DNA of 48,565 bases from Candidatus Bipolaricaulota bacterium. Its GTDB lineage: Bacteria > Bipolaricaulota > Bipolaricaulia > UBA7950 > UBA9294. Below are positions 3,753 to 48,565 of this stretch, piece by piece. The notes under the pieces are model-generated. The model made no database searches. It saw only the letters and a list, made by a program, of their open reading frames with translations, and had not been told where the DNA came from. Position 1 is the stretch's first letter; every line of letters begins with the position of its first letter. The translations under genes and the position numbers were made by a program. The DNA is taken from positions 1 through 48,565 of the forward strand of contig JAUWPW010000004.1 in assembly GCA_030611415.1 (NCBI GenBank), given 5' to 3'.

Positions 3753-4829
3753 TTGCAGCGCAAAAAAATGAAAGCTTTGTCGTTGTTTTCTGGGAGCCTT
3801 GCCAGCCGTATAGCAGCTAGATTAGTTGAGCATTTCCCAAATGTAGAAGAGATAGCGCTTCTTTATTTTCGGTGTCCATATTTTGGGGGATATGAGAGAA
3901 TTCGTGAGATCGTCAAAGAAGAGTGGCCTGGAGTGTATTTCCGCACGCAATCACTGAAAAAGGAATACCGTCGATTAGCGAATATCGGCCCTGCAGGATG
4001 TTTTTCGCTTAGGAGCGCTTGTCTCAGTTGTCGCACGATTATGCTATCGCATGCCATTCACTACATGGAACGAATAGGGGCGGATTTTGTTGTCACTGGG
4101 GAATTGATGGGTAAGAATGGGCTTTTTGAGAGAGAAATGCTACAAATTGAGCAAGCTTTGGGAATAAGCGGTCTTATCTTGCGCCCACTTTCGGCGCGTC
4201 TCTTGCCCGTAACTAAGGCGGAGCGTGTGGGCAAGATCGATCGAAATGTTCTGGGTAGATTAACCGTGGATGACAGTGCTGAGTTGGCCAACATTGGTGC
4301 TCGCCTTGGCCTTTTGAGCGGTGATGGATTACCAGCTGAAGTACGTTGTAAGCTGACCTCTCGTCAATTTGGTACGCGATTAGAAGATCTATTAGGAGAG
4401 AGAGGGTTCAATATAAGCTCTTTGAAACTGCTAGATTTTGCTCTTTACTACAAGGTTCCTCCGGATGTGAAGATTGTTGTAGCAAAGGATGAGGAAGAGA
4501 AACGAATGCTGCAGAACTTCTTCCTGCCGCATGATTTACGGGTATACCTTCCTATTCATGGCGGTTCGATGACACTTGTGCGTGCTAATTGGGCGACGAA
4601 ATCACAGGCCGAAACAGAAGAAATCATTGAATTTGCGAGCAGAATCACTGTTACTCATAGTGAAACCGTCAGACGGTCTAGTATGCAGGTGAATTACCGC
4701 TTTGAGAATGACGATGAGACGCTACAGTTAAATGTGTTTCCATTTTCATCCGAGAGGGAGATCTGTAATTACTGCTGTGTTCCTGTTGCCCCTTACGCAA
4801 GTTCTAGCGAGAGCTTGGTTCGGTCTTGA
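3753..4829 (+). CDS. PP-loop/ThiI-MnmA-like tRNA thiolation-type protein with degenerate PP-loop
   Basis: FSGSLASRIAARLV where SGGxDS is expected; ACLSCRTIMLSHA; TGELMGKNG...LILRPLSARLLP. Confidence 0.6.
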   Translation: MQRKKMKALSLFSGSLASRIAARLVEHFPNVEEIALLYFRCPYFGGYERIREIVKEEWPGVYFRTQSLKKEYRRLANIGPAGCFSLRSACLSCRTIMLSHAIHYMERIGADFVVTGELMGKNGLFEREMLQIEQALGISGLILRPLSARLLPVTKAERVGKIDRNVLGRLTVDDSAELANIGARLGLLSGDGLPAEVRCKLTSRQFGTRLEDLLGERGFNISSLKLLDFALYYKVPPDVKIVVAKDEEEKRMLQNFFLPHDLRVYLPIHGGSMTLVRANWATKSQAETEEIIEFASRITVTHSETVRRSSMQVNYRFENDDETLQLNVFPFSSEREICNYCCVPVAPYASSSESLVRS

Positions 4830-44192: not shown

Positions 44193-44265
44193 GGGGCCTT
44201 AGCTCAGTTGGGAGAGCGCTTGCATGGCATGCAAGAGGCCAGGGGTTCGAGTCCCCTAGGCTCCA
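44193..44265 (+). tRNA. tRNA-Ala (anticodon GGC), CCA not encoded
   Basis: Cloverleaf readable; G3:U70 alanine identity pair; CTTGC-ATGGCAT-GCAAG anticodon arm. Confidence 0.95.
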
Positions 44266-44273
44266 TGAGATAG

Positions 44274-44293
44274 GGGCGGTTCGCGAACCGCCC
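44274..44293. repeat. 20-bp perfect palindrome GGGCGGTTCGCGAACCGCCC
   Basis: Direct reading; no T-tract follows. Confidence 0.7.
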
Positions 44294-44302
44294 ATACTTC
44301 AT

Positions 44303-44424
44303 CTTACCGCAGAGGACGCAGGGAAAGACAGTAATAAGTGATGGGTAATGAGTGATGGGTGAAAAGCAAAGACATCTAAATGCTAAAGACAGATACATTT
44401 AACCGCAGAGGACGCAGAGGGAAC
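44303..44424. repeat. Composite CCGCAGAGGACGCAG / GTGATGG heptamer element
   Basis: GTAATAA GTGATGG GTAATGA GTGATGG GTGAAAA in register, flanked by CCGCAGAGGACGCAG copies; related to 851-1058. Confidence 0.75.
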
Positions 44425-44487
44425 CAACAATAGGGTGAAAGACAAGACCATAATACGTAGATCGTTTGTAGCGTCGAGTCTTCGCTT

Positions 44488-44887: not shown

Positions 44888-44957
44888 GGAAAACGGCCTG
44901 AAAACGTCGTAGAAACTCGCGCAGGTAACAAACTAATCAAGTCTCAGGCAGTTATTC
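44888..44957 (-). repeat. attC-like site C (weak)
   Basis: Minus strand GAATAAC TGCCTGAGAC ... GTTTTCAGGC CGTTTTCC; overlaps 3' end of ORF 44933-45340. Confidence 0.35.
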
Positions 44958-45340
44958 AGCGATACAAAGGAACCCTCAACTAGAAAAGGGGCATTTGCGC
45001 CAGAAAACAGAAGTGAAAAGCACTTGAAAAACAAGGTAGGAAACCGGTAAAGGCTGTGAAAGGACAAGTTGTTAGTACGCGGTGTCGGTTTCTTGCTTGT
45101 GTTATGAACCCAATCTTCTCCGTTAGAACCCCAAGTGTACTTGACGTTAGTTGATGAAAGAGCCTGAGAAAAATAATTGATGACTTCATCCTTAACAACT
45201 TCAGGCACGAGCAAGATAAAGTTAACTCTTTCGACCCCCTCAATAAAAGTGGCAGCACTTGTGCCCGTACCGCGCAGGTCTGCACAGTAAACACAACTAT
45301 TAACGAGAACGTAACCTGCGGTTTGTAATGGCTCTGTCAT
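44933..45340 (-). CDS. Hypothetical protein, possible cassette gene
   Basis: ATG 11 nt downstream of attC-like site B; C-terminal part may not be genuine. Confidence 0.45.
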   Translation of the reverse strand: MTEPLQTAGYVLVNSCVYCADLRGTGTSAATFIEGVERVNFILLVPEVVKDEVINYFSQALSSTNVKYTWGSNGEDWVHNTSKKPTPRTNNLSFHSLYRFPTLFFKCFSLLFSGANAPFLVEGSFVSLNNCLRLD

Positions 45341-45350
45341 TTTCTCTCTT

Positions 45351-45387
45351 GTCGAACGTTGGCTTTGCCTGCAAGCGCTTGTTAGGT
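45351..45387 (-). repeat. attC-like site B (short)
   Basis: Minus strand ACCTAAC AAGC GCTTG CAGG CAAAGC CAAC GTTCGAC. Confidence 0.45.
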
Positions 45388-45407
45388 ATCATACCAGTAA
45401 ATTGTCG

Positions 45408-46163
45408 TCACACCGACTTCAATAAATCGTCGACTGAGGCCGTCAAGACTTCCCAGCACGTCCTCGACGTGGCTGCATCGAAAGAGGCCTTCTGTGAGAT
45501 ATGTACCCACGGATGCACAACATTGCGTGACTCCCGGAGTGCATGACTAAATTTCCCGCGATCAGACTTTATCCAACCAACATCGACCGCAACGTCAACC
45601 AGAGAATTGAGGTTCCAATCTTGGATTGCACGTACTTTCCCGTTCTTGTCTTTCGGCGCCTTGGACGACCTACATGCCGCAGGCAAATCCATGTTAACAC
45701 GGGAAAGAAGGAGACCTTCAAGAATGCTCCCCATTAGTACAACCGCTGCCAAATTGGCGCCGCTATGTTGGCATTTCTGTGCTTCAAGCCAACGGTCATC
45801 AACCAGTTCTTTGAGGCCTGGCATCGTTGTCGTAATACGTGAAACATCAGGGGCGCGAGTAATGCGCTTTGTCGTTTTGATAGCACCGCTGCCCAACAAC
45901 GTTAGTGCCGAGTTAACATAATTACACAGCGCCTCAAGGCGAACTTGCCGACTGTTGGCTTCGAAATCTTTGTCGCCGTCCATGCTTGAAATCAACACAA
46001 AAAAGCCAGAGGTCGGGACTTCAGCCAGAACCATTTTGACTTCGCGAACTTTGGCATCGACGGCACGTAGCCGTGAGAATTCTTCAGTTCGCGCCACACC
46101 ATTAGCTGTGGCAATTTCGCCCCGAATCTTTGTGAGAAGCCTTCGCGCTGTATCCTGGTCCAT
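45408..46163 (-). CDS. Hypothetical protein, possible HEPN-like C-terminal region
   Basis: LRESRNVVHPWVH (R...RNxxHP); RBS GGGAGGA upstream of ATG. Confidence 0.65.
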   Translation of the reverse strand: MDQDTARRLLTKIRGEIATANGVARTEEFSRLRAVDAKVREVKMVLAEVPTSGFFVLISSMDGDKDFEANSRQVRLEALCNYVNSALTLLGSGAIKTTKRITRAPDVSRITTTMPGLKELVDDRWLEAQKCQHSGANLAAVVLMGSILEGLLLSRVNMDLPAACRSSKAPKDKNGKVRAIQDWNLNSLVDVAVDVGWIKSDRGKFSHALRESRNVVHPWVHISQKASFDAATSRTCWEVLTASVDDLLKSV

Positions 46164-46190
46164 TGAGTCCTCCCGATTCCTTTCTTGCGT

Positions 46191-46250
46191 ACCTAACGGA
46201 CGCGCTAAACTGTGCCGTCTTCGGCGTCGTGCTTAAGCGCGTTATTGGGC
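46191..46250 (-). repeat. attC-like site A (60 nt)
   Basis: Minus strand GCCCAATAACGCGCTTAAGCACGACGCCGAAGACGGCACAGTTTAGCGCGTCCGTTAGGT: R'' / L'' / VTS hairpin / L' / R' layout. Confidence 0.65.
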
Positions 46251-47326
46251 GTTTCTTTCCTCTGTGACGGTGGTTTGTCAACGCCTCGCTCTTTTGCCCA
46301 CGCTCTCAGCATGGCAACTCTTTCCTTCCAGGCTTCCTTTCTTTCCTTCCAGGCTGCCTTTACCATGGCGTTCTCTATACTCTCTCCCATGGCGTTCTCT
46401 ATACCCTTTCCAAGGTCCTCCAACCACTTGTCCACACCCCACATCTCAATATACTGCTTGTCCATTCCAACACACTGCTGTTCGACTTCCTCCTGGGACA
46501 TGTGGGGAAGGCTCTTGACCCATGCAAGTGTCTCTTGAACCTGTGGATCACTGCACCCGATTTCCGCGATCCTGGAGAAGGTGCGTGAACCCACAAGCTT
46601 CTCCAGCCAGTCCACCTGATGCTCACGAAGCCCGCCGAAAATCGGCGTCTCTATGCCAAATTTCGCGGCATAGTTAAAACGAACCGTTCCGAGAGGATAT
46701 TTCACCAGATGGCATATCGAAAGAACCACGATTACATCTCTGAAACTCCCAAACCATTTCGTGAAGGCGGCCTCTTCGAATGTCTGGAAGTTGCCCTTGA
46801 ACATCCCAAGCTGATTTGAGAACTTGTGCCCTTTCGTGTGAACATAGTTGTGCAGGTAGCCGAACGACAGAAGGCGTGATTGCAGGTCGTAGCTGCGCTG
46901 GAACTCTTGGAAGTTCCGGTGTTTCACGAGCTTCGCCCAAATCTCGCGCAAGCGAGGGGTATCTTTCCTAGACCTTAACCACTCCTTGACAGCCTGATGA
47001 CCGTCGTCATTGAGATTCCAGTAAACTGAAAGCAGGCCAAGCTCGAGCCCACTTCGGAGTGAGACCATGGCCTGCTTGTAGAAGCCGAACAGGGCAAGAT
47101 TGCAGGAGATCTGGATTTCCCGCCAGGATTCCACCCACGGGAAGAAGTGTCCTGACCAGAGGTTCTCCGTTGTGTGCGGAATCAGGTCACCCACAGCGCA
47201 GTAGGTGTGCCCGAGTGTAGTGATTTCTGGCTCCAAGCCTGAGCGATCAAGGAAATCCTTCGATTCCTCGTATACGTCTACGCTCTTGTCCGGGTGCCAA
47301 AAAAACGAAAAGAGTATTGGCTTCAT
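46205..47326 (-). CDS. Hypothetical protein with repeat-containing C-terminus; stop codon inside attC-like site A
   Basis: 373 aa ORF; tail NNALKHDAEDGTV encoded by site A. Confidence 0.65.
   Translation of the reverse strand: MKPILFSFFWHPDKSVDVYEESKDFLDRSGLEPEITTLGHTYCAVGDLIPHTTENLWSGHFFPWVESWREIQISCNLALFGFYKQAMVSLRSGLELGLLSVYWNLNDDGHQAVKEWLRSRKDTPRLREIWAKLVKHRNFQEFQRSYDLQSRLLSFGYLHNYVHTKGHKFSNQLGMFKGNFQTFEEAAFTKWFGSFRDVIVVLSICHLVKYPLGTVRFNYAAKFGIETPIFGGLREHQVDWLEKLVGSRTFSRIAEIGCSDPQVQETLAWVKSLPHMSQEEVEQQCVGMDKQYIEMWGVDKWLEDLGKGIENAMGESIENAMVKAAWKERKEAWKERVAMLRAWAKERGVDKPPSQRKETPNNALKHDAEDGTV
46320..46361. repeat. 21-bp tandem duplication, 20/21 identical
   Basis: CTTTCCTTCCAGGCTTCCTTT CTTTCCTTCCAGGCTGCCTTT. 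Confidence 0.85.
46363..46404. repeat. 24-bp period tandem duplication
   Basis: CCATGGCGTTCTCTATAC at 46363 and 46387. Confidence 0.85.
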
Positions 47327-47861
47327 TTTAGGTCGCCTAACTTGTTATTCTACCCAAAATCTTCCTCTTACGGGGAATCATTCTCACGACACTACGCATT
47401 CTATGACTCCATTCCTTTACTGTCAAGAAGAGAACTGAAGAGACTATTCGATTGAAATCAGCCCGGCGATTAACATAACAACGTAGCTGGCGAGTTATGG
47501 AGATTGTCAATAATCAGGAATCGAAGGCTTGTGCCTGTCTTTCTACTGCTTCTATCCTACGTTCACTGCTCTTCGTTCACTCATCTTCCATTGCCTTCTC
47601 CATCCTCTCTAGCAGATTCCAAAGTCCTTTCCCGCCATTTTCCACCCCAGTGAACGCGCCGAGGCAAGTCTCCAGGAAGTAACGCAGCCGGATAGCTCTA
47701 TCGGACTTATTTAGTTAGGTTGGTTTCCTTCATTTGTGTTTCTCTCTTGGGAATCTAGTTTGTCCATTAATTCCAAATGTTAATCACGTACTTCACCGGC
47801 ACGATGTCGCACAAGGCTGTTCGCGGCAATTTGGATGAATGGATGAAAGCTGCTGCCCCAG

Positions 47862-48203
47862 CTATTGAGCAAGCGAAATCAAACATTCAGCATCAGTCGC
47901 AGCCTTTGTAATTGATACTGGCACTTTGTGCTCTTTTCCTTCATATTGGAACACAATCCAGCAAAGATCGAATGGCTCCTCTAGTGCTTGTGCGATTTTG
48001 GTCGCGTCTCCTTTGAATAGCCCATCCAACTTAGAAAGGGTTTCCGAAACTGGCGCTTTCTTAGTCCCTTCAAATGACGATGTATCCTTCCATCCAATAA
48101 TGCAGTAGCCGGCTGCTGTTAGGGAGCCATCAATCCTAACGTCGCCAACGCTCAGGGTTGCGGCCTCATTCTTGATCTCGAAGGCATAATCTCGCGTCTT
48201 CAT
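47862..48203 (-). CDS. Small hypothetical protein
   Basis: GGAGGG precedes ATG 48203; plausible globular composition. Confidence 0.55.
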   Translation of the reverse strand: MKTRDYAFEIKNEAATLSVGDVRIDGSLTAAGYCIIGWKDTSSFEGTKKAPVSETLSKLDGLFKGDATKIAQALEEPFDLCWIVFQYEGKEHKVPVSITKAATDAECLISLAQ

Positions 48204-48565
48204 ATTCCCTCCATTGCGCGTCACTTCCCCGTACTTGCCATAATAGTGATTCTTGCGCTTCGCACAACTCTTGATTATATAGCACGTTAGTTTTATGACG
48301 TCTCTCGGTGATCAAGATGCCGACCACTCAATCCAAAAGCGAAGAGCCTCACATCCTGTCTGAACTCTTAGCATTCTGCAACCTGATTGTTATTCCATGC
48401 TGTGAGTAAGCTGTTACTGCCTTATCTCAGGAACGCCCTAGTTATTAGAGCAAGGGTCGAAAGTTCTGAGAAATGTCTCGTTTATCAAGGCAAGGGGTTT
48501 TTCCATCTCTTGTTCTTCTTGCTCTAAGCCATGCCCTCAAATTCCTCACCCGTCTTATTGCTCTT

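Follow-up and report, generated by a model that had tools for sequence, protein, structure and literature searches.

Integrase-less clusters of same-strand cassettes with attC junctions are classed as CALINs in IntegronFinder (PMC9024848), and complete sedentary chromosomal integrons have an attI site with a promoter, a divergent intI side and cassettes joined at G^TT. Outside class 1 integrons, attI sites are poorly described and are not searched for, according to the authors of IntegronFinder (PMC9024848). Additional attI copies outside the main integron are known from the delta-attI-type cassettes of class 1 integrons (PMC12901181), the closest described case that we found.

The window analyzed here, a stretch of 48,565 nucleotides from a Candidatus Bipolaricaulota genome, holds an array that is very probably a small sedentary integron that lost its integrase gene. 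It shares with CALINs the same-strand cassettes, the attC junctions and the lack of intI but retains an attI site and a predicted promoter; its two attC-like junctions, one of them degenerate, only marginally reach the CALIN minimum of at least two attC sites, and since a retained attI anchors it, it is better named a sedentary integron without intI than a free-floating CALIN. The attI with its predicted promoter, the divergent intI side and the G^TT joints are those of a complete sedentary chromosomal integron, from which the array differs in lacking intI and in being very short. In class 1 integrons attI1 ends in AAACAAAGTTAGGC, comparable with AATAACAAGTTAGGC at the end of the window attI, and the attCs are collinear in their L and R boxes, whereas the attI region is otherwise unrelated and the array lies neither on a plasmid nor on a transposon. 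Delta-attI-type cassettes sit in mobile class 1 arrays, whereas here attI copies are spread over genome contigs, each before different DNA. Taken alone, the array belongs to a known kind; what is unusual is that attI copies are dispersed and mostly lack intI.

Three consecutive minus-strand ORFs, from which an earlier note on this DNA had proposed an integron-like cassette cluster, were present as it had placed them. The features of the locus are as follows.

44193-44265, plus strand: tRNA-Ala (Rfam)
44933-45340, minus strand: ORF1, 135 aa, probable third cassette with a truncated 3' end
45351-45387, minus strand: site B, a shortened attC-like junction of 37 nt, R'' ACCTAAC and R' GTTCGAC
45357-46196, minus strand: cassette 2 (ORF2), from GTTAGGT in site A to ACCTAAC in site B
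45408-46163, minus strand: ORF2, 251 aa, carried by cassette 2
46191-46250, minus strand: site A, the attC of cassette 1, from the covariance model, a sequence and pairing score and the box layout (R'' 46244-46250, L'' 46232-46240, L' 46201-46209, R' 46191-46197)
46197-47340, minus strand: cassette 1 (ORF3), from GTTAGGC in attI to R'' GCCCAAT in site A, ends complementary at 5/7 positions
46205-47326, minus strand: ORF3, 373 aa, carried by cassette 1
about 47334-47526, minus strand: attI block with predicted cassette promoter
47335-47341, minus strand: R' GTTAGGC with the crossover G^TT between 47341 and 47340
47398-47426, minus strand: predicted Pc-like promoter TTGACA-17-TAGAAT, 11 of 12 consensus bases, kept in the aligned attI copies
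47527-48565, plus strand: place expected for intI, occupied by unrelated DNA with no IntI match

The attI block and the missing integrase

A BLAST comparison of the window with fetched loci identified a 193-bp block (match at 47334-47525) with 84% identity to positions 11801-11992 of contig C137 in G098, a genome of the same family. In G098 the match directly precedes an intI gene scoring 400 bits to TIGR02249, and the contig ends inside this gene, after the tyrosine motif. The alignment begins at the intI start codon and breaks off after GTTAG, which places the attI crossover in the GTTAGGC heptamer; ORF3 begins 8 nt past it. End points were taken from an alignment of 12 attI copies of the family, the query of the initial block search having stopped 5 nt past the crossover. 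Identity among the 12 copies was 90% over the 30 nt leading up to the crossover, 47% across the 4 nt that follow and 26–30% farther on. The TTGACA/TAGAAT motif faces the cassettes about 57 bp before the crossover, and the block is, by homology, an attI site with a conserved predicted promoter that would transcribe the array. Save for the crossover heptamer at its edge, the block lies just outside the interval 44888-47341 to which the cluster had been assigned.

On the other side, homology to G098 ends at the intI start codon; the 1,039 bp between 47526 and the window end at 48565 are other DNA, in which tblastn found no IntI pieces. This replacing DNA holds a 120-aa ORF without a family match (47862-48224, minus strand). 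The G098 IntI gave no match at E 1e-6 in the source genome (G000; draft, 93% complete, 78 contigs), and an integron-integrase profile gave sub-threshold matches only, one of them an N-terminal fragment on contig C29 that contains a stop codon. That no integrase is in view held both beside attI and for an intact IntI in these genome searches, and the other contigs, where a search for intI and more attC sites had been proposed, yielded the C29 fragment and attC-like sites but no intact intI. Besides the IntI fragment, C29 (L011:1-4320) carries a GNAT cassette-like gene with an attC at its end (699-754) and a second site at 4254-4272, whose L' and R' are identical to those of the first; the locus is another decayed integron in the source genome. 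A shared array spanning C29 and the window was considered and dropped, attI being placed at 47335 and C29 having its own IntI fragment.

The cassette junctions

Site A is 60 nt long, with R'' GCCCAAT, L'' GCGCTTAAG, L' TTTAGCGCG and R' GTTAGGT (GCCCAAT-AACGC-GCT(T)AAG...TTT-AGC-GCGTCC-GTTAGGT). Its length, the R''/L''/hairpin/L'/R' order, the extrahelical base and the R' box were all verified as first described. For comparison, 30 reference attCs were collected from class 1 and Tn7-type integrons, a Shewanella phage, a Vibrio phage and one viral contig. With 26 nt retained on either side, these sequences aligned gap-free, and site A could be placed alongside them in the same register. The pairing of its L arms follows that of class 1, Shewanella, Vibrio and same-family attCs, and so does the position of the extrahelical base.

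Self-built covariance models, in place of that of IntegronFinder, were run with Infernal. Under a model of the 30 reference attCs (R1), which recovers convincing attCs in relatives, site A scored only 9.3 bits and ranked low. A second model (R2) added 19 attCs from the same phylum and included no site of the window or of its own genome; it gave 11.9 bits for site A (E 1.3 over the whole window) and 12.6 bits for site B (E 0.89), the best match of the window. In this covariance search, of the kind proposed in the earlier note, the top three matches of 44.3-48.5 kb were the two sites, B ahead of A, and the attI junction, each of them on the minus strand, but the E-values of sites A and B were near 1 over the window, so that for sites A and B covariance alone leaves the question of an array undecided. 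By the sequence and pairing score, site A exceeds 15% of known attCs (leave-one-out), and matches as good were found at 1 of 176,634 background positions and in 0 of 1,500 shuffles, with about 2e-4 expected per junction. An earlier hand-made score, trained without same-phylum attCs, had not separated site A from random sequence; adding the 19 same-phylum attCs raised its score. On its sequence, site A is a fair attC, and it should still fold into the hairpin used by an integrase. Neither site A in plasmids nor a degenerate version of its pattern in viral contigs gave more than chance matches.

Of the attC-like elements said to end each ORF, the one following ORF3 stood, the one following ORF2 proved shortened and none was supported at the 3' end of ORF1 in the covariance scan of 44.3-48.5 kb. 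Site B folds weakly and is far below normal attC length, and its recombination is probably impaired; the last cassette, that of ORF1, would have lost its 3' site.

The ends of cassette 2, reported before as complementary at 8 of 9 positions, pair as GTTAGGT with ACCTAAC at 7/7. In eight cassettes, the two of the window and six of relatives (related loci and a small sample), cassette start and terminal R'' were complementary at 50 of 56 positions, compared with 42.0 after partner swapping (P 0.001). This test is independent of site finding, since pairing in the covariance model is between both ends of a single attC, not between the start and the end of a cassette.

Cassette genes and genomic setting

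ORF3, predicted to be mostly helical, has relatives of 49–52% identity in a Methanoperedens archaeon MAG, a Nitrospinaceae MAG and Pontibacter. Its last 16 codons lie at or inside site A, with the stop codon supplied by L', and two of the three relatives stop at the point where the ORF3 protein runs into site A. No attC was seen by inspection around the three relatives, and homologues elsewhere thus lend the cassette reading no support; no ORF3 relatives were found in viral contigs. The C-terminal half of ORF2 has relatives of 31–39% identity in Deinococcus, Prevotella, Streptomyces and Paraburkholderia records; ORF2 matched nothing in Pfam, NCBIfam or PADLOC, and the RNxxH motif at its end is what suggests that it may be HEPN-like. 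Structure predictions were poor (pLDDT 36 for ORF2 and 57 for ORF3), and a fold search of the PDB gave no significant match. ORF1 had neither a family nor a plasmid match.

Among 100 genomes of the phylum, ORF2 and ORF3 were absent from all 99 others. The leucyl-tRNA synthetase gene and tRNA-Ala beside the array, the latter the only match in an Rfam scan of the window, are 88–94% identical to those of G001, G002 and G003 of the same genus, and the match ends at 44265-44420. The comparison of presence and absence, suggested for strains and made here across the phylum, found the two genes in 1 of 100 genomes and no conserved synteny beyond tRNA-Ala in these three; together with the differing DNA after attI copies, it amounts to cassette turnover between relatives. 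Directly after the same tRNA-Ala, G003:C2 (L088:2093-3658) has a large serine-recombinase-like gene, which marks the tRNA as a variable insertion spot in the genus. A 75-bp repeat, 80% identical, is shared by 44353-44425 and 869-943, between the two ends of the contig. Elsewhere in the source genome, Shedu (SduA), AbiJ and Ymh genes adjoin attC-like sites on C55 (L064) and C25 (L065), and repeats of 85–200 bp with promoter-like motifs precede several of them.

Dispersed attI copies and the proposed history of the array

Eight of the 100 phylum genomes, all from a single family, contain the attI/promoter block. Its matches number up to four or five per genome, and 3–5 in several, the weakest being short; the source genome has a second match on C62. 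These copies, at loci L120-L133 (G099, G095, G022, G016, G000:C62 and G098), are mostly without an intact intI, and the 12-copy alignment has different DNA after each. A cassette and then an attC follow six relatives' copies (G098:C137, G095:C125, G099:C35, G099:C277, G016:C33 and G016:C14), and G098 keeps the arrangement intI-attI-cassette-attC. G016, G022, G095 and G099 also hold attI copies without an intact intI: searches with the G098 IntI found only fragments, several with stops, in G016, G022 and G099, and none in G095. An intact family IntI is encoded in G012. In the G098 IntI (L027:11971-13230), about 110 extra residues precede the point at which integrases usually start, and pieces of this N-terminal extension adjoin other attI copies.

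The claim of a CALIN-like or chromosomal-integron array gained its support here. The attI homology to an intI-bearing relative, the fall in identity past the crossover among the 12 copies, the six cassette and attC units of relatives and the absence of ORF2, ORF3 and conserved synteny beyond tRNA-Ala in relatives together settle that this is a cassette array. Sequence comparison gives the attI homology, the crossover position, the cassette ends, the missing intI and the genes' absence in relatives; the history proposed here goes further. The cassettes of ORF1, then ORF2, then ORF3 would have been inserted by site-specific recombination at attI G^TT, ORF3, which adjoins attI, being the latest because newcomers join there. 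The intI expected divergently beyond 47526 would then have been lost and the cassettes thereby fixed; with intI gone, the array can change no further except through an integrase acting in trans. Against this reading count the R'' of cassette 1, 5/7 complementary to the cassette start, the shortness of site B, the E-values near 1 of sites A and B under self-built models, the lack of attCs around the three ORF3 relatives and the draft state of the genome, in which an intI may lie elsewhere.

Those E-values are also what would favor a chance cluster of unrelated ordinary genes with intergenic DNA resembling attC, to which we give next to no credence: attI homology ends at the junction, cassette ends are complementary in cis, three independent junctions are the top matches on the right strand, and the attI homology rules such a cluster out. 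Another, improbable reading keeps the integron complete, with intI split off by an assembly or contig problem, or acting in trans from within the 7% of the genome that is missing. The draft state of the genome, the window end at 48565 and the C29 IntI-like fragment with its stop and attC-like sites would allow this, but 1,039 bp of other DNA stand where intI should begin, no intact copy turned up with either the G098 IntI or the integron-integrase profile, and four other genomes (G016, G022, G095 and G099) likewise have attI copies without an intact intI.

A mobile attI/promoter block, spread for example within attI-bearing cassettes or a HicB-attI unit, with the array growing at an orphan copy that never had intI, is an unlikely history too. 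In its favor, several genomes hold 3–5 copies, class 1 integrons are known to contain functional delta-attI-type cassettes (PMC12901181), and a HicB/DUF7387-like gene, identified by weak Pfam matches, precedes six attI copies in a shared block of 275–470 bp at several loci. The window copy, however, extends as far as the intI-linked copies of G098, G099:C35 and G022:C163 do, up to the intI start codon, and so most likely once had intI; moreover, the crossover is the sole block end defined as a recombination site. Loss of the integrase gene from a small sedentary integron remains the preferred reading.

By itself the array adds one decayed integron, and its significance rests on attI: comparison within the family defines an attI family and its predicted promoter to the base, in multiple copies mostly without intI, offers a way to find integron loci missed by attC or IntI searches, and makes integrases serving distant attI sites in trans a testable question. 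Conceivably, and we propose it only tentatively, these copies are intI-less docking stations of attI and promoter, part of them coupled to a HicB-like gene, up to 4–5 per genome, each with its own cassette or two and served by a rare integrase in trans. In the open-licence papers searched, no description of such dispersal of attI blocks was found. Cargo at the family's attI copies includes TIR/Thoeris-like and type I restriction-like genes; in G099:C277 (L128:12517-13817), an attI-anchored cassette with ThsB-TIR and TIR-8xMP genes and a strong attC at its end looks like anti-phage cargo.
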